A stretch of 64,000 nucleotides of DNA from Hyphomicrobiales bacterium (GTDB taxonomy: Bacteria; Pseudomonadota; Alphaproteobacteria; SPJN01), in NCBI GenBank assembly GCA_006844605.1, contig SPJN01000003.1, forward strand, positions 124,001 through 188,000, written 5' to 3'. The translations under genes and the position numbers were made by a program. Of this stretch, positions 6,018-22,698 are shown piece by piece (the stretch's first letter is position 1; each line of letters begins with the position of its first letter). Below the pieces are notes generated by a model. That model did no database searches, was not told where the DNA came from, and saw nothing but the letters and a program-made list of their open reading frames with translations.

Positions 6018-6782
6018 ATGCTCTATCTCGTCCCGACGCCGATCGGCAATCTTGACGACATAACCCTGCGCGGCCTTGATGTCCTGAAACGGGCAGACTT
6101 GATCGCGGCAGAGGACACGCGCCATACGGCCAAGCTGTTGAACCATTATGCGATTAAGACCCCGCAACAATCCTATCACGAACATAATGAGCAGGCCGTC
6201 ACACCTAAGTTGATCGAAAGGTTACAGGCTGGTGAGACGATTGCCGTCGTCACCGATGCGGGCACACCCGGTATTTCAGACCCCGGATACCGCATCATGC
6301 GGGCAGCCATTGATGCGGGCGTTGAAGCAACGGTCTTGCCCGGTGCCAGCGCTGTTGTCCCGGCCATTGTGCTGTCAGGCCTGCAAGTCAGCAGCTTTAC
6401 CTTTCGGGGGTTTTTGGCCCGCAAGTCCGGGCGTCGTAAGAACGAGATGCTGGCAGACCAGGACAGCCCACATACGCTTGTGTTCTACGAAGCCCCTTCC
6501 CGTGTCCATGAATTTCTACGCGATGCGCTGACGGTATATGGCGACCGCGATGTCGCTGTCGTCAACGATATTTCAAAAATGTATGAGGCCGCGTGGCGCG
6601 GCCCGATCAGCAAGGTTCTTGAAGACTTGCCGTCTGAAGATCAACGACTGAAAGGCGAATTTGCCATTGTACTGGCAGGATCAGGGGAAAAGGCGCGCGT
6701 TCGCGGTCAACAGGACGTGAACACCAAACCCAAACGGGTTCGCCGCCATTTGCGCGATAAGCAGGATCAAGAGGCCGATTGA
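6018..6782 (+). CDS. rsmI: 16S rRNA 2'-O-ribose C1402 methyltransferase
   Basis: Tetrapyrrole-methylase-fold enzyme of 254 residues that 2'-O-methylates C1402 of 16S rRNA in the P-site region. Signatures in order are LVPTPIGNLDDIT at the N-terminus, AEDTRHTAKLL (about 34-44), VTDAGTPGISDPG (about 78-90), PGASAVVPAI (about 108-117) and FYEAPSRV (about 157-164). The C-terminal end is a basic tail of about 25 residues. The length is slightly shorter than common RsmI proteins, mainly because the start lies directly at the first strand. It follows the amidohydrolase gene and overlaps the 3' end of the convergent KpsS-like gene by 16 bases. Confidence 0.95.
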   Translation: MLYLVPTPIGNLDDITLRGLDVLKRADLIAAEDTRHTAKLLNHYAIKTPQQSYHEHNEQAVTPKLIERLQAGETIAVVTDAGTPGISDPGYRIMRAAIDAGVEATVLPGASAVVPAIVLSGLQVSSFTFRGFLARKSGRRKNEMLADQDSPHTLVFYEAPSRVHEFLRDALTVYGDRDVAVVNDISKMYEAAWRGPISKVLEDLPSEDQRLKGEFAIVLAGSGEKARVRGQQDVNTKPKRVRRHLRDKQDQEAD

Positions 6783-8125
6783 TAGATTGCGGCAATACTT
6801 GTTGCGACCTGATCTTCATTGGCTTTCGCATCAAACCCTTCGATCAACACGCCATAAAGTGGATCGAGTACGCCGGGCCACAACAGGCATTCCCTTTCGG
6901 CAACCGCAGCGGTTAATAAATTTGCATCAAATTTGAAACTATCCAACTGCGCGACACAGGCCGCAGGGTCATCCTGCCATTCTTTGACACCAGGTAATCC
7001 ACGAAACCACGCGGCCCCGAACACGATGACAGGCTTTGCCATTTGCAACGCTTCCCATCCGGCTTTGCCCGTAATTGTCGCCACCCCCACTGACCTTTCA
7101 ATCAACTCAAAGCTAGGCGTATCACGGGGAAGATAAGCGACCCGTGGGATGGCTTTCAGGCGCGTGAAAAAGCTATCCTCACGCAAATAGCTTGCCTGTT
7201 TGGGGTTTTCTTTGACATAGACCCAAACATCATCAGGCAGTTGGCGCACCAATTCCTCGATTGCAAGTAGCTGATCACAATACACCCCGCCCAACACATC
7301 TGTCGTCATTTCCGGCTGCAAATGAAGGGGGAAGTAAACGAACTTGCGGTCAGGCACATAGACGTCAAACATATCAGCCAATTGACTATGCAGCCGATAT
7401 TCCTGACGCAGCCGCTCAAACTTAATCCATGATTTGTCAAAGCTTTTGCGGTTCCACAGAAACGATAAAGTCAGTGCCTTGAATCCTGTGTTCAACGCCC
7501 TGCTGCTATAGGCCATCAAAAAACGCGATAACGTCATGCGCGCCGCGCCTTTCATATAAAAGGGTGGCGATGGATTTAGGTTCAATGAAATGGCACCTGA
7601 TGGTGTTGTTTTGGGGCCGCTGACACCGATGGATTCAATCGCTTCTGACGCCCAAAACCGATTGGAAAACAGTGATTGCATCAACACAATCGTACGAATG
7701 CCCAACGCCTGACACAGATGATAGAGAACAATTGTGGTTCCGCCGTGGGGGACATTGCGAAAGATCACTGTCTCGATTTTCTGATCTTTCAACAAGTTCC
7801 AATAAAATTGGATGGCATTCTCAAACAAATTGTCGACGTCGAGCCAACTGTCTGAGTTTTTGGCCCGTTTAAAAAACTGTCTAAAATGCGTGCGTCGATA
7901 GGTTGTGAAGCTTGCCTCGCGAACCTGCTTCGTGATCGTCGGATCAAGGTCGGCAGCAAACGCATGAGGTACGGCCATATGCGCCAAATCATGGGAAATC
8001 AGCCTGACGCTTGGGTCGAGGTCTCGCGGCAAGCGATGAATATATATCAGCGAGTTGATCGGGATTCCGGCGGCACGGAACCGCGCCACGTGGTGATATT
8101 CAAAGGCAACTGCAAGAACGGACAT
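6767..8125 (-). CDS. KpsS/LipB-like capsule polysaccharide biosynthesis protein
   Basis: Cytosolic protein of 452 residues. The C-terminal half resembles capsule-synthesis proteins of the KpsS/LipB kind: VYFPLHLQPEMTTDVLGG (about 275-292), DVWVYVKENPKQ (about 316-327), then VATITGKAGWEALQM and KPVIVFGAAWFRGLPGV (about 369-401). These match the UDP-sugar-transferase-like core with its conserved ENP and GTAGWEA segments. KpsS-type enzymes are reported to add Kdo to a lipid anchor for capsule. The substrate here is unknown. It is the second gene of an apparent pair with the glycosyltransferase upstream (17-base gap). The 3' ends of this gene and rsmI overlap by 16 bases. Confidence 0.62.
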   Translation of the reverse strand: MSVLAVAFEYHHVARFRAAGIPINSLIYIHRLPRDLDPSVRLISHDLAHMAVPHAFAADLDPTITKQVREASFTTYRRTHFRQFFKRAKNSDSWLDVDNLFENAIQFYWNLLKDQKIETVIFRNVPHGGTTIVLYHLCQALGIRTIVLMQSLFSNRFWASEAIESIGVSGPKTTPSGAISLNLNPSPPFYMKGAARMTLSRFLMAYSSRALNTGFKALTLSFLWNRKSFDKSWIKFERLRQEYRLHSQLADMFDVYVPDRKFVYFPLHLQPEMTTDVLGGVYCDQLLAIEELVRQLPDDVWVYVKENPKQASYLREDSFFTRLKAIPRVAYLPRDTPSFELIERSVGVATITGKAGWEALQMAKPVIVFGAAWFRGLPGVKEWQDDPAACVAQLDSFKFDANLLTAAVAERECLLWPGVLDPLYGVLIEGFDAKANEDQVATSIAAIYQSAS

Positions 8126-8142
8126 AAGGTTCTATTACTCCG

Positions 8143-8916
8143 CTATTGCCAATGCTCATCAATCCAAGGGGTGGGCAGCACCTTCTTGTAAATGCGCTTC
8201 CATTTCTTGTCTTCTGGCCACTTGCCGATCACGGCATCATCGGGATCAGGCTTACCTGTAAAGCCTATCAGCTTGGCATCCGCAGGCAATGGCGGCACCT
8301 TGAACCAGTTCATCGGAAAACTGGGTATCAAATCGTGCTTGAAACTTAGGCACCAGCCCTTTGGCCAAAACAGAATTTCGTCCAATTCACGCGACAAATA
8401 TTGCTGCTCTATCCGATAGCGCGACAGTACGTCATCGGGATTTTTTTGCACATCGTCATAGATGAAGCTGTTTTCACCAACCCGCCAGCGGTAGCAAGTT
8501 GTATTGCCGATGCCCTGCCCAACTTGGGTCCAGTTTTCAATGGCAACGACCTTGCCCGGCGCGAAGGTATAGAAATCATCCATTGGCCCCGTAATCACCA
8601 AATCCAAATCAAGGAACAGGACGTCATCACCGTGGTTGAAGCCGGCAAGCTCACTTTGCCATAGAGATATCTTGCGCCAAGGCGTCCAGCGCACATCTTC
8701 CGGCAAATTGATTTCGGGTAAGGGGTGGCATTCAATCTCGTCTGGAATGCCGGTCGGGTCGTCGGTGTAGCAAACCAAATGCAGCGGCATGGTCAGGTTT
8801 CGCTTTAATGCTGAATGAAGCCGCGTGACATAATCGGCACCGTATCGCGTGCCCCACTTTATGCAGGCTGCATGAGCAACATTGCCCTGCCCGTCAGTAA
8901 GCCCTTGATCCGTCAT
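8143..8916 (-). CDS. Putative DxD-type glycosyltransferase
   Basis: Protein of 257 residues without signal or membrane segments. DDVLFLDLDLVITGPMDDFY (about 97-116) contains the DxD metal/nucleotide-sugar motif D103-L-D105, placed after a Rossmann-like half (IKWGTRYGADYVTRLHSALK, then LHLVCYTDD). This is the arrangement of GT8-like and related GT-A enzymes. WPKGWCLSFKHD near 190 and the late LIGFTGKPDPDD resemble alphaproteobacterial 'glycosyltransferase' proteins of unknown acceptor. The ATG at 8916 is the only good start. It is co-directional with the KpsS-like gene 17 bases downstream, so it likely belongs to surface polysaccharide assembly. The exact sugar is unknown. Confidence 0.62.
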   Translation of the reverse strand: MTDQGLTDGQGNVAHAACIKWGTRYGADYVTRLHSALKRNLTMPLHLVCYTDDPTGIPDEIECHPLPEINLPEDVRWTPWRKISLWQSELAGFNHGDDVLFLDLDLVITGPMDDFYTFAPGKVVAIENWTQVGQGIGNTTCYRWRVGENSFIYDDVQKNPDDVLSRYRIEQQYLSRELDEILFWPKGWCLSFKHDLIPSFPMNWFKVPPLPADAKLIGFTGKPDPDDAVIGKWPEDKKWKRIYKKVLPTPWIDEHWQ

Positions 8917-9006
8917 ACGCCATCCGCTCCATTAGCTATATGCATGATCTATGCGCAGATTCTAAGGTAGCGTCAAGCCTGTGGGAAATAGCAAATAGTG
9001 CGGGTA

Positions 9007-9369
9007 CTAGGCCCGGCGATAATCATCGGCAAGGCGGATGATATCTTCTTCATCAAGCAGGCTGCCCTGCTGCACTTCAATAATCACCAACGGCTCGTGC
9101 CCGGCATTGTGAAGCCGGTGGCGTGCCTGCGCGGGAATGGTGACGACATCGCCGCTTTCGATCTTGTGGCGCTCCGCATCGACGTCTGCAATGCCAATGC
9201 CGGACACCACAGTCCAAATTTCGGCCCTATGTTCGTGATATTGCAGGGAAAGACGTTGGCCGGGTTTCACTTCAATACGTTTGACGACAAAGCCAGGGCC
9301 CGTATCAATAACGTGCCACGTGCCCCACGGACGCGTTGCCTCTGCCCCAATCGTATATCGCACTGCCAT
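9007..9369 (-). CDS. Cupin, mannose-6-phosphate isomerase type II C-terminal-like
   Basis: Stand-alone cupin of 120 residues. RPWGTWHVID (13-22), VKRIEVKPGQRLSLQYHEHRAE (about 29-50) and GDVVTIPAQARHRLHN (about 73-88) are the two cupin motifs as they occur in the isomerase domain of bifunctional mannose-1-phosphate guanylyltransferase/mannose-6-phosphate isomerase. The metal ligands would be H45, H47, E50 and the later H84. Its likely role is interconversion of mannose-6-phosphate and fructose-6-phosphate for GDP-mannose supply. A separate sugar-binding cupin function cannot be excluded. The two upstream polysaccharide genes on the same strand fit this role. Confidence 0.8.
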   Translation of the reverse strand: MAVRYTIGAEATRPWGTWHVIDTGPGFVVKRIEVKPGQRLSLQYHEHRAEIWTVVSGIGIADVDAERHKIESGDVVTIPAQARHRLHNAGHEPLVIIEVQQGSLLDEEDIIRLADDYRRA

Positions 9370-9437
9370 TTGTGTGCCCCAAGCCCATTAAATCCGCACA
9401 AGAACGCGCATTAATGCAGGCCCTACACAAAGCTGCA

Positions 9438-9466
9438 AGAAAAAAAGGCAGATTCACTGCCATTTT
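9438..9466 (-). terminator. Rho-independent terminator
   Basis: Read on the minus strand, GGCAG and CTGCC pair around a five-base loop and are followed by seven T residues. It lies just downstream of the secreted-protein gene at 9491 and before the cupin gene. It probably ends transcription of the secreted-protein gene. Confidence 0.7.
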
Positions 9467-9490
9467 CTACCGGAATTGTTGACCGGTTTC

Positions 9491-10138
9491 TCACTGAAAG
9501 CGATTTAGCGGTGAAATACCCTTGTTACGGCCAAGGCCAAGCGGATTGTTGCCACCCCGCAATTCGTCAGCCGCATTATCAATGCCCCGATCTGCGCCAC
9601 CGGGACCGCCACCTGCCATTGTAGACTGACCGCCACTGAATGCACCGCGCACCTTGCGATAAGCTGCCCGATTTCCGCTGGCATGCGCGCCCAGCAATAT
9701 CTGCCGTTTCCGCGCGCCACGAACATAACGCAGGGCATTTGCAGCATTTACACCCGCCTTTTCATCGGCACGGATCGCAGCGGCGGCAACCAACGCTGTG
9801 CGATCGGGGTCCTGCGTTGCAGCGACAATGGCAATGGCGGGAATATTTGCGACCCCGTATTTCTGCATCAGGCGCGTCAAATGTGTCTCAGCATCCGTGT
9901 CATCATCGGTCAGCATAATCTGATGAATGACACGCGCGGCCTCAGCCTCCAACGCAATGGGGCCGCCACCGGGAACCGATACAATCATATCGCCGTTTGA
10001 CTTCGTCATCACATCACCGGGCGCGGCAAATGCAGCCCCTGTCATGCCAACAGCCAACATGAAAAGGACAACCATGACCATAGGCAGCCCCCGAACAGTC
10101 CGAATATTTTGTATGCTTGGTGTCAAACCTGTCTCCAT
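9491..10138 (-). CDS. Secreted protein of unknown function
   Basis: I do not recognise a family. The 215-residue protein has a signal peptide: a hydrophobic stretch at about 20-37 ends in GAAFAAPGD. An internal ATG at 10081 (MVMVVLF) would give a more typical signal length and has GGGG a few bases upstream. The mature part is Ala-rich and predicted helical (about 60-150). It ends in a Gly/Asn-rich, low-complexity tail (about 165-215, with runs such as GGGPGGADRG and GGNNPLGLGRNKG). The tail suggests a flexible exported or surface role. The gene stands alone, with its own terminator downstream (9438-9466). Confidence 0.7.
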   Translation of the reverse strand: METGLTPSIQNIRTVRGLPMVMVVLFMLAVGMTGAAFAAPGDVMTKSNGDMIVSVPGGGPIALEAEAARVIHQIMLTDDDTDAETHLTRLMQKYGVANIPAIAIVAATQDPDRTALVAAAAIRADEKAGVNAANALRYVRGARKRQILLGAHASGNRAAYRKVRGAFSGGQSTMAGGGPGGADRGIDNAADELRGGNNPLGLGRNKGISPLNRFQ

Positions 10139-10249
10139 CTGCGCGCATCGATATATATGCGCTCTCCCTCAACCTAGGAATGGATTGTGGCGCAATAGGG
10201 GCATCAAATGGGACAAATGATGCAGATCGGCAACATTAACGATCTACTT

Positions 10250-11998
10250 TTAGGAACGGCGCAATTCACGGATCAAAAACCGCCCCGGATGCAAGGCTGC
10301 CAGTTCATCCCGGGCAAGCGATGGCACCTGCCCGCACACCATTGCGGCAAGATTATCTGCCAATAATGGCGCTGTCATAAACCCGCGGGAGCCAAGCGCC
10401 CCCATAACGAATAGCCCCGGCGTCAACGGCCCGGTCATATCGGCGACAGCCGTCGGCCCATGTTTGATCGGGGCAAACATTGTTCGCCATTGATCAAAGT
10501 CAGGCACCGGCCCCATTAACGGCAACCGATCCGGCACCGTTAGGCGACTGCCAGACCAGTCGCTGACATGCTGCTGACCGCTGATGTTGAAACTGTCAAG
10601 CAACCCAGCCCGATCATCATCATTCGGCACTGCTGCTGACGGATCGCGAAAACTGGCACCGATGACAAGCCTGTCTGCCCCATCTGGAATCAGATAATGA
10701 TCAGCCATTTGTGGCATCGTAAATCCATGCGCCACATGATTAACCAAGGCAATTTGCCCCGCCAATGGTTTGAGCGGCAAATCTGCACCATCCAGAAAGC
10801 CTGTCAGCCCCACCCCGGGGCAAAGAATAACAGCGTGATTAGCTGAAGACACTGGCGCCCTTGTAACGCCAAATCGCACATCACCCCCCTTGGCCAATAG
10901 TGCCAAGGCCGCAGCGCCATCGACCCACCCGGTTTGCGCGATATGCAGCCCTTTGTCTGACAACTCTACACCAGTGTCATGCCAAACAGACGCACCAATG
11001 CTGGCCCAAAAATCACAAGCAAAGGAAAATGCGTTTCCCATAAAACGTGGCCCACCGCCGGCACCATGATCAAGCCACGGGGTAATCAACGCTGCAGGAA
11101 TGGCCGATACGGTTGCCGCCCAATTCCGCTGCCGTTCAATGACGGTCACGCTGATTTCAGGGGCCTTGGCCTTGATCGCCCTTGCCGTTAGCAGCCCCGC
11201 CAGCCCAGCGCCGACAATCGTGACTTTTTTTGGCGGCACAGTTGGCAATGCAGAATCAGCCCATGACAATTTATGCGGCGAATGTTTTGCATCATGACCG
11301 TCAAACCTACCGATACTCATATGACGCTTGCGGCCAAAGCCTTTTCTGCGCTCCATCTTAAAGCCAACATGCGCCAGCCTACGCCGAACATCCCCAACAG
11401 CCGTGAATGTCGCCAGACTCGCCCCATCCTTGGAAAGCCGCGCAATTTCCCGAAATAGTCGATCCGACCAAAGGTCTGGATTTAAAGCCGGTGCAAACCC
11501 ATCAAGAAACCAGCAATCAACCATCCGCCGCGGCGCAAGGGTGGCAAGCATATCTGCGCCCTCGCCCGCCAGCACGGTCAGGCGCATACGCCCGTTCTCA
11601 AAATTCAAATCATGCCGCCCCGCACTTTTCGGAAATGAGGCGCGCAATAACTGTGCCAACGGGGCAAGCTCAGGAAAGGCGTCGTGGGCTCGCGCCAGAT
11701 CATCAACACACATCAAATGCTTTTCTACGCTGATAAAATGAATGGTGCCCGGCTGCCCTGCCTTCAACCATGCCTGCCACAAGGTCAGGAAATTCAACCC
11801 CGTGCCAAAGCCCGTCTCGCCCACGACAAGCGGCACGACAGATTGTTTTGACCACCGGTGAGTGACATCACACCCGCCCAGAAAGACATAGCGACTTTCT
11901 TCAAGACCGGCATCGCCATAATACACATCGTCATATTGCGATGATCGTGGCTGCCCGTCATCCGTCCAGGCGCATGGTGTGGCTTGTATATTGGTCAC
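10250..11998 (-). CDS. mnmC: Bifunctional tRNA 5-methylaminomethyl-2-thiouridine biosynthesis protein MnmC
   Basis: Two-domain enzyme of 582 residues that finishes the mnm5 modification at the wobble uridine of certain tRNAs. The N-terminal SAM methyltransferase domain (MnmC2, DUF752) shows SSQYDDVYYGDAGLEESRYV near the start, GETGFGTGLNFLTLWQAW (about 60-77) and CWFLDGFAPALNPDLW (about 169-184). The C-terminal FAD oxidase domain (MnmC1) begins with the dinucleotide motif VTIVGAGLAGLLTARAI (about 258-274) and closes with GLFVMGALGSRGFMTAPL. The domain order matches E. coli MnmC, and the length is slightly shorter. It has no obvious operon partner. Confidence 0.94.
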   Translation of the reverse strand: MTNIQATPCAWTDDGQPRSSQYDDVYYGDAGLEESRYVFLGGCDVTHRWSKQSVVPLVVGETGFGTGLNFLTLWQAWLKAGQPGTIHFISVEKHLMCVDDLARAHDAFPELAPLAQLLRASFPKSAGRHDLNFENGRMRLTVLAGEGADMLATLAPRRMVDCWFLDGFAPALNPDLWSDRLFREIARLSKDGASLATFTAVGDVRRRLAHVGFKMERRKGFGRKRHMSIGRFDGHDAKHSPHKLSWADSALPTVPPKKVTIVGAGLAGLLTARAIKAKAPEISVTVIERQRNWAATVSAIPAALITPWLDHGAGGGPRFMGNAFSFACDFWASIGASVWHDTGVELSDKGLHIAQTGWVDGAAALALLAKGGDVRFGVTRAPVSSANHAVILCPGVGLTGFLDGADLPLKPLAGQIALVNHVAHGFTMPQMADHYLIPDGADRLVIGASFRDPSAAVPNDDDRAGLLDSFNISGQQHVSDWSGSRLTVPDRLPLMGPVPDFDQWRTMFAPIKHGPTAVADMTGPLTPGLFVMGALGSRGFMTAPLLADNLAAMVCGQVPSLARDELAALHPGRFLIRELRRS

Positions 11999-12615
11999 CG
12001 ATTAGAACGTTTCTTTATAAGGCCGCAAATCAAGTTCTAAAGTCCAAGCAGAACGGTGCTCTTGGCAAAACATTCTGAATGCACAGACAAGATCCGCAAT
12101 GAACAAATCACTTTTAGCCACTCTAGTTACCCCATTTTCAATCGCATGGGTGCCAAATTGCATTCACGCAGTCTGCCTGCCTTTACGGGGCTTTGAAATT
12201 GCCAGCGCCCCGAAATTTGACCTGATTCGTCCAATTTGCGTGGAAAGACCGGAAAATTTGCAAGACCGATGACAGAAATCAAGACAGATGCAAATATTTT
12301 TGCCGCCACACCGCTTGACACTTTAGTATCGATTTATCAACACCCATAGCGGTCAGCGCGAATTTTATAGAAATATTTACTACAGAAACAGAGCATAGCC
12401 GCATTATGGGTTTCAACAATGTATGCCAGACATCGCAATAAAACTTAGTAATTACAAAAGCTTAGGCCCCCCACCTTTCGTTTTCAACCTAAAGGTATGT
12501 TGCTGTGCGGCCCATACTACCTGAAATGGTCGTCTTTTTACGCGGCAGCACCTAGGTGTCGATTTATTAAAAAAAGTACTAGACAAAAGTCATAGGCCTA
12601 GGCAATATCAATTTT

Positions 12616-12753
12616 ACCGAAGCTGTTGCCACTCCATTTGCTTCGGTAGCCCCGGGCCTAGACGGGGTTCCACCGACGAAAAAGCGAAAGCTTTCTTGCC
12701 GGATTATTTAGGGGAACGGCCGCCAACCCACCGACCAAGCCGTTCCCCTTTTT
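12616..12753 (+). ncRNA. Candidate structured small RNA with four hairpins
   Basis: Four consecutive hairpins occur with little unpaired sequence between them. H1 is ACCGAAGC/GCTTCGGT, 8 perfect pairs, at 12616-12623 and 12640-12647. H2 is CCCCG/CGGGG, extendable to 7 pairs with a wobble, at 12648-12669. H3 is AAAGC/GCTTT closed by a GAAA tetraloop at 12681-12694. H4 is the terminator, 9 perfect pairs, at 12711-12748 followed by TTTTT. A weak promoter-like pair (TAGACA at 12580, CAATAT at 12603, 17 bases apart) would start transcription close to H1. I see no match to tmRNA, SRP, RNase P or a riboswitch class I know. It could be a trans-acting sRNA or the leader of the racemase-like gene 60 bases downstream. 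Confidence 0.5.
12711..12753 (+). terminator. Strong rho-independent terminator
   Basis: GGGGAACGG at 12711-12719 pairs perfectly with CCGTTCCCC at 12740-12748 and is followed at once by TTTTT. The T-run is only on the plus strand, so the terminated transcript runs rightward. No protein gene upstream on that strand could use it, which implies a noncoding transcript. Confidence 0.85.
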
Positions 12754-12815
12754 CTTTGCCCAAATCAGATTTCATTTTCAGTAGGCAAGTCTGCAAAGCT
12801 TTGCTAGCAAGCCCT

Positions 12816-13478
12816 ATGACTGATCAAAAAACACTGACATTCCTGCACACCGCACCAAGCCACGTCGCCCGCTTTGACCGCCTGCTTGCAGCGCATGACC
12901 TAACTGCCCTGCGGGTACAGCATCACGTCAACGAGGCGTTGTTGCCCCATGACGGCCGCCTGACAGATGATTTGAAACGCAATGCGCTTTCAATTTTCAT
13001 GCAACTTTCATCCGGTGCTGACATGGTGCTGTGCACATGCTCTACCCTTGGCCCTGTCGCTGACATAGCTGCAGAGATGGTTGATGGCCGTGTTTGGCGC
13101 ATAGACCGGCCAATGGCCCAACAGGCGCTGAAGACTGGCCAACACATTCTTGTGGCGGCATGTCTTGCCCCGTCAATCATGCCCACACAGCGCCTTTTAA
13201 TGGCTGAAGCTGACGAAGCCCAATTACTGCCGATGATCAGCCCCTTGATTATTGAAGGCGCATGGCAGCTGTTTTTGGACAATAACGAAACCGCCTATGC
13301 TGCAGCGATTGCACAGGCCATCAAAGATGCTGTGCAAACCACGAAGCCTGACGCCGTTATTCTGGCTCAAGCCTCGATGGATTGCGCAGAACCATTATTG
13401 AATGATTGCGGCGTACCGGTTTTCAGCACACCACATATTGGCGTTGCAGCCGCTCTTGATGAGCTGGGCCTGATTTAG
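12816..13478 (+). CDS. Asp/Glu racemase-like protein
   Basis: Cytosolic protein of 220 residues beginning MTDQKTLTFLHTAPSHVARFDRLL. The family resemblance is to Asp/Glu/hydantoin racemase-like proteins. LCTCSTLGPVADIA (about 73-86) supplies a first active-site-type cysteine. ILAQASMDCAEPLL (about 184-197) supplies a second one in the mirror position, as in two-base racemases. The substrate is unknown, and many homologues are annotated only as arylsulfatase or hypothetical. I use the ATG at 12816 because the longer in-frame start at 12696 would place codons inside the terminator at 12711-12753. It ends 30 bases before the convergent DUF3604 gene. Confidence 0.72.
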   Translation: MTDQKTLTFLHTAPSHVARFDRLLAAHDLTALRVQHHVNEALLPHDGRLTDDLKRNALSIFMQLSSGADMVLCTCSTLGPVADIAAEMVDGRVWRIDRPMAQQALKTGQHILVAACLAPSIMPTQRLLMAEADEAQLLPMISPLIIEGAWQLFLDNNETAYAAAIAQAIKDAVQTTKPDAVILAQASMDCAEPLLNDCGVPVFSTPHIGVAAALDELGLI

Positions 13479-20525: not shown

Positions 20526-22567
<2,042 letters not shown>

Positions 22568-22698
22568 AGCCGCAGTTTGCGCGGATCGCAGCCGGGGGTC
22601 AAGCCCACTTACCCCCATGAAATGACCTAAATCACGTCCCGTTTCAGCCATGTGTAGACGCGAAACTGACACTGCAAACTTGAAAAGGAGGTTTCATA

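Follow-up and report, generated by a model that had tools for sequence, protein, structure and literature searches.

A putative four-hairpin small RNA gene with a free-standing intrinsic terminator in a bacterium of the Hyphomicrobiales

AbcR1 and AbcR2 are trans-acting small RNAs (sRNAs) of the Alphaproteobacteria whose short series of three hairpins ends in a terminator, and their anti-ribosome-binding-site motifs, CUCCCA and GUUCCC, are located in the loop of the first hairpin and in a linker (PMC5461406). A similar layout is seen in trans-acting sRNA families that have been defined by their conservation in the Rhizobiales, such as RFMSmelC023 and RFMSmelC289, in which four to five hairpins follow one another and a Rho-independent terminator comes last (PMC3927594). 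The simplest module for the binding of Hfq by such molecules combines the terminator stem with a U-rich stretch on its 5' side and a U tail after it, and the genes for enterobacterial Hfq-binding sRNAs carry at least seven T residues in that tail (PMC5558911).

A candidate of comparable architecture lies within the 64,000-nucleotide window of a Hyphomicrobiales genome that was analyzed here, where the 817-base intergenic region between a minus-strand mnmC-like gene and a plus-strand gene of a racemase family carries a run of hairpins (Table 1). We put at roughly one half (0.5) the probability that the plus strand of 12614-12757 is a free-standing sRNA gene, most likely for a Hfq-dependent, trans-acting regulator. 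Like AbcR1 and AbcR2, the candidate is a short hairpin series closed by a terminator, and it displays ACUCCA in the loop of hairpin 1 and GUUCCA between hairpins 2 and 3, a partial match to the two AbcR motifs. Unlike the three-hairpin AbcR sRNAs, it has four hairpins and no match in Rfam at E values up to 10; with CUCC-A and GUUCCA only, the likeness is one of resemblance and not of membership. Consecutive hairpins with the terminator in last place are also shared with the Rhizobiales families, but those are defined by conservation, whereas the candidate matches none of them in sequence and is known from one sequence.

Table 1. Coordinates, within the window, of the proposed sRNA, its parts and the bordering genes.
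Feature	Position	Strand	Basis
mnmC-like gene with Methyltransf_30 and DAO domains	10250-11998	-	Pfam domains
Candidate weak promoter, TAGACA-17-CAATAT; RNA start would be ~12615 (within chance)	12580-12608	+	Sequence
Proposed sRNA, ~144 nt, four successive hairpins	12614-12757	+	MFE, z, energy scan, Rfam null, single copy
Hairpin 1: 9 perfect pairs, 12615-12623/12640-12648 (TACCGAAGC/GCTTCGGTA), 16-nt loop TGTTGCCACTCCATTT	12615-12648	+	Fold, z -5.5
Hairpin 2: 6 pairs, GC-rich, 8-nt loop	12649-12668	+	Fold, z -1.7
Hairpin 3: 3+3+5 pairs, GAAA tetraloop	12673-12702	+	Fold, z -2.7
Linker AUUAUUU, U-rich, single-stranded, abutting the 5' side of the terminator stem; putatively Hfq-rim-site-like	12703-12709	+	Sequence; module from PMC5558911
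Intrinsic terminator (hairpin 4): 11 perfect pairs, 12710-12720/12739-12749, 18-nt C-rich loop, tail TTTTTCTTT	12710-12757	+	-20 kcal/mol, z -4.6
Asp/Glu/hydantoin racemase family gene (context, outside the RNA)	12816-13478	+	PF01177, E 4e-10

The original prediction had described four hairpins in a row, and all four (12615-12749) are indeed present in both the minimum-energy and the centroid structure of the plus strand. The stretch folds with a minimum free energy of -58 kcal/mol (z = -4.8), and none of 200 dinucleotide shuffles was equally stable. Energies were also scanned over 1068 windows of 144 nt, placed on a 120-nt grid on both strands of the 64 kb; against a mean energy excess of -1.2 (sd 4.0), that of 12614-12757 was -17.2, the largest among the ~534 plus-strand windows, although its position was chosen off-grid, which biases the comparison slightly in its favor. 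Taken alone, hairpins 1 and 4 lie far outside chance and hairpin 3 is better than its shuffles to a moderate degree, whereas hairpin 2 is weak and could be a product of chance, being matched by 11 of 200 shuffles. The GC-rich stem and the GAAA-tetraloop stem were found as predicted, while the first stem and the terminator stem have nine and eleven pairs, respectively, rather than the eight and nine originally claimed. The minus strand opposite the hairpins also folds well, as is expected for inverted repeats; the T tract after the last stem is found on the plus strand only. Additionally, one 11-nt word occurs twice in the stretch with a single mismatch, before hairpin 3 (12670-12680, CCACCGACGAA) and inside the terminator loop (12728-12738, CCACCGACCAA).

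Judged by its sequence, 12614-12757 is non-coding. It holds no ATG, and the only frame that crosses it is a TTG frame running into the racemase-family gene, whose homologues begin, in alignments, at about residue 2-7 of the protein read from the ATG, i.e., later than the start of the TTG frame. The supported upstream genes (6767-11998) are all on the minus strand, and no convincing plus-strand gene was found between 6782 and the hairpins. This agrees with the expectation that no upstream plus-strand gene could need the terminator. Two further structures were observed on the minus strand of the window: an unusually good fold (z -6.2) at 13334-13477, inside coding sequence opposite the 3' end of the racemase-family gene, and a TPP riboswitch at 22464-22572 (68.5 bits), just 5' of a 630-codon minus-strand ORF (20526-22418).

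The terminator is strong, in line with the original prediction. A strict search of 264 kb of the genome on both strands, which called for a perfect stem of at least eight pairs followed by at least five T in six positions, returned six sites, and the site at 12710-12757 has the longest stem. Three of the five other sites lie 25-33 nt past a same-strand gene and have a similarly GC-rich stem and T-rich tails (e.g., TTTTTC); in form, therefore, the terminator resembles the gene-end terminators of this genome, to judge from sequence. It was assigned automatically to a gene end ("same strand, -767"), an artifact of an over-long TTG frame at 12696 that does not mark a real gene end, and a looser terminator scan classed the site as an orphan. 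Since supported plus-strand genes are absent upstream, the terminator, if used, would serve a transcript that starts within the intergenic region. The stretch exhibits some of the general features of an intergenic, intrinsically terminated sRNA: a GC-rich terminator with a U tract that belongs to no supported upstream gene, and no coding capacity.

An orphan terminator could have other uses. In a divergent promoter region, it might act as an insulator that stops stray plus-strand transcription before the racemase-family gene, in which case the other hairpins would be without function. Hairpins 2 and 3, weakly to moderately above chance, fit this idea, as do an undetected promoter and the failure to find conservation; hairpin 1, however, 62 nt 5' of the terminator, is also far outside chance (z -5.5), and we regard an insulating role as quite unlikely. 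It is improbable, too, that the terminator closes a short mRNA for an unrecognized small protein encoded on the plus strand in 12000-12600, with the hairpins as its 3' untranslated region. The region does contain plus-strand ORFs of 32-57 codons, such as 12423-12524 and 12497-12595, and at two related loci (L033 and L035) a ~50-codon ORF with its own terminator precedes the racemase homologue. On the other hand, a Pfam search with ten short ORFs of the intergenic region matched no family, no good ribosome-binding site was seen for these small ORFs, the last of them ends 115 nt 5' of the terminator stem, and the small ORF of L033 and L035 is absent, by eye, from the mnmC-racemase intergenic region.

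The neighboring racemase-family gene offers a further explanation. In terminator-type riboswitch and attenuator leaders, a structured RNA and a terminator likewise stand shortly before a same-strand gene, and here 67 nt separate the end of the terminator stem from the racemase ATG (12816) on the same strand. The hairpins might thus form a regulatory 5' leader, with the terminator as an attenuator unless a ligand, a protein or the ribosome opens it. Were transcription to begin upstream of 12588, a helix of 12589-12603 with 12649-12663 could replace hairpin 2, and 12588-12599 is complementary over 12 nt to the start-codon region (12810-12821). Nevertheless, the terminator still forms when that helix replaces hairpin 2, and when the 3' arm of the terminator was forbidden to pair, the best alternative fold was ~16 kcal/mol worse (-64.2 vs. 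-80.4 kcal/mol), a gap that leaves no competing antiterminator. Unlike described leaders, the candidate has no match to an aptamer or riboswitch family in Rfam, nor does a leader ORF span the hairpins. Racemase homologues are also without such a leader: the structure model of the candidate found no match in the flanks of 23 homologue loci in the class. No relatives of the racemase were found in genome_contigs and viral_contigs. A strong upstream terminator does occur at three of the 23 homologues, where it follows either the ~50-codon ORF (L033 and L035) or the upstream gene (L037). Because each of these terminators follows an upstream reading frame, a conserved leader attenuator is unsupported. 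A leader specific to the source genome is possible; overall, the leader alternative allowed for in the original prediction has lost support, and we consider it unlikely. The small ORF of L033 (1157-1323) and L035 (~2475-2323, reverse strand) lies, in two genomes that belong to one genus, between the upstream gene and the racemase homologue; it begins MNNEITFDGL and has a strong terminator of its own.

The free-standing sRNA gene was next compared with known RNA families and sampled genomes. In agreement with the original prediction, which had recognized no known class, searches of Rfam 15 at the gathering cut-off and at E values up to 10 returned no relevant family for the hairpin stretch; a minus-strand match to P31 (16.9 bits, against a gathering threshold of 40) is due to chance. 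The 6S RNA, at 140-190 nt, folds into a single extended rod that has a bubble at its center. The candidate is similar to it as a non-coding RNA in that range of lengths, but has four hairpins where 6S has a single rod. A match to 6S, named beforehand as an outcome that would speak against the prediction, did not appear: no match to RF00013 was obtained in the window at E values up to 10, and the genome's own 6S lies on contig 4 (60244-60407, 61 bits), so the hairpin stretch is not 6S.

The element is single-copy in its genome. Among 289 genomes of the class, all from other genera, families and orders, a DNA search recovered only matches of 17-38 nt, which is the level of chance. A covariance model built from the single sequence (self-match 188.9 bits) likewise revealed no convincing relative in the 289 genomes. 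Its best other match (24.2 bits, G191, L050) falls within a cobQ-like reading frame, and another of 18.8 bits, on contig 3 of the same genome (L079), within a tsaB-like frame; given these locations inside genes, both were taken as chance. A search of genome_contigs for exact copies of a 24-nt pattern from hairpin 3 returned none. Two IMG/VR contigs contain an exact 19-nt match to hairpin 1, which was also attributed to chance, as neither locus fits the hairpin structure convincingly. One such phage contig (L081) bears an apparent tRNA gene at ~8270-8345 (reverse strand), and it is the D-arm and anticodon-arm of this gene that share the 19 nt with hairpin 1.

A promoter search upstream of the hairpins recognized nothing above chance. 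A promoter motif trained on 80 upstream regions of the genome yielded no clear -35/-10 pattern and scored the regions upstream of the tRNA and 6S genes poorly. In the same intergenic region, a 22-nt direct repeat (77% identity) occupies 12319-12340 and 12549-12570, and the second copy stops ~45 nt short of the putative start of the sRNA. The only two occurrences of its core, TCGATTTATYAA, in the 2.01-Mb genome are both in this region. The repeat could be the site of a regulator; chance could also account for a repeat of this size within 841 nt.

The small-RNA reading of the original prediction therefore stands in part. The free-standing terminator, the lack of upstream plus-strand genes and of an internal ATG ORF, the absence of an Rfam family and the placement of 6S elsewhere speak for it; the chance-level promoter and the lack of a relative do not. 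Of the explanations weighed, an sRNA gene is the best supported, and the locus is probably an orphan, ordinary, lineage-specific sRNA gene with a real terminator.

From these features we infer transcription, a start site, Hfq binding and mRNA targets, as follows. RNA polymerase would initiate near 12615 and halt at the 11-bp intrinsic terminator, with the transcript ending near 12757, and the product would be a non-coding RNA of ~140 nt with four hairpins. Hfq, the gene for which is present in the genome (E 3.5e-32), would hold the RNA by its U tail and by the AUUAUUU linker 5' of the terminator, and the loop of hairpin 1 (ACUCC) or the C-rich terminator loop would pair with the G-rich ribosome-binding sites of target mRNAs. 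Hfq-assisted base pairing would be the likeliest mode of action, at about even odds. The linker corresponds to the U-rich part of the Hfq module, while the tail (T5-C-T3) is shorter than the seven or more T residues of the enterobacterial genes (PMC5558911) and is interrupted by a C. The stretches that are open and could pair with ribosome-binding sites are loop 1 (UGUUGCCACUCCAUUU) and the C-rich loop of the terminator, and their complementarity to 249 sampled translation-start regions did not exceed that of shuffled loops.

It is tempting, if rather speculative, to suggest that the candidate represents an sRNA family confined to its own lineage, within an alphaproteobacterial order that has been little sampled. 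Such a family would have no relative among those described, and would control many mRNAs by means of an anti-ribosome-binding-site loop. Orphan sRNAs with an intrinsic terminator are common among bacteria, so the general picture would be left unchanged. If transcribed, the stretch would be a new non-coding RNA gene and would enlarge the list of bacterial sRNAs that evolve fast.
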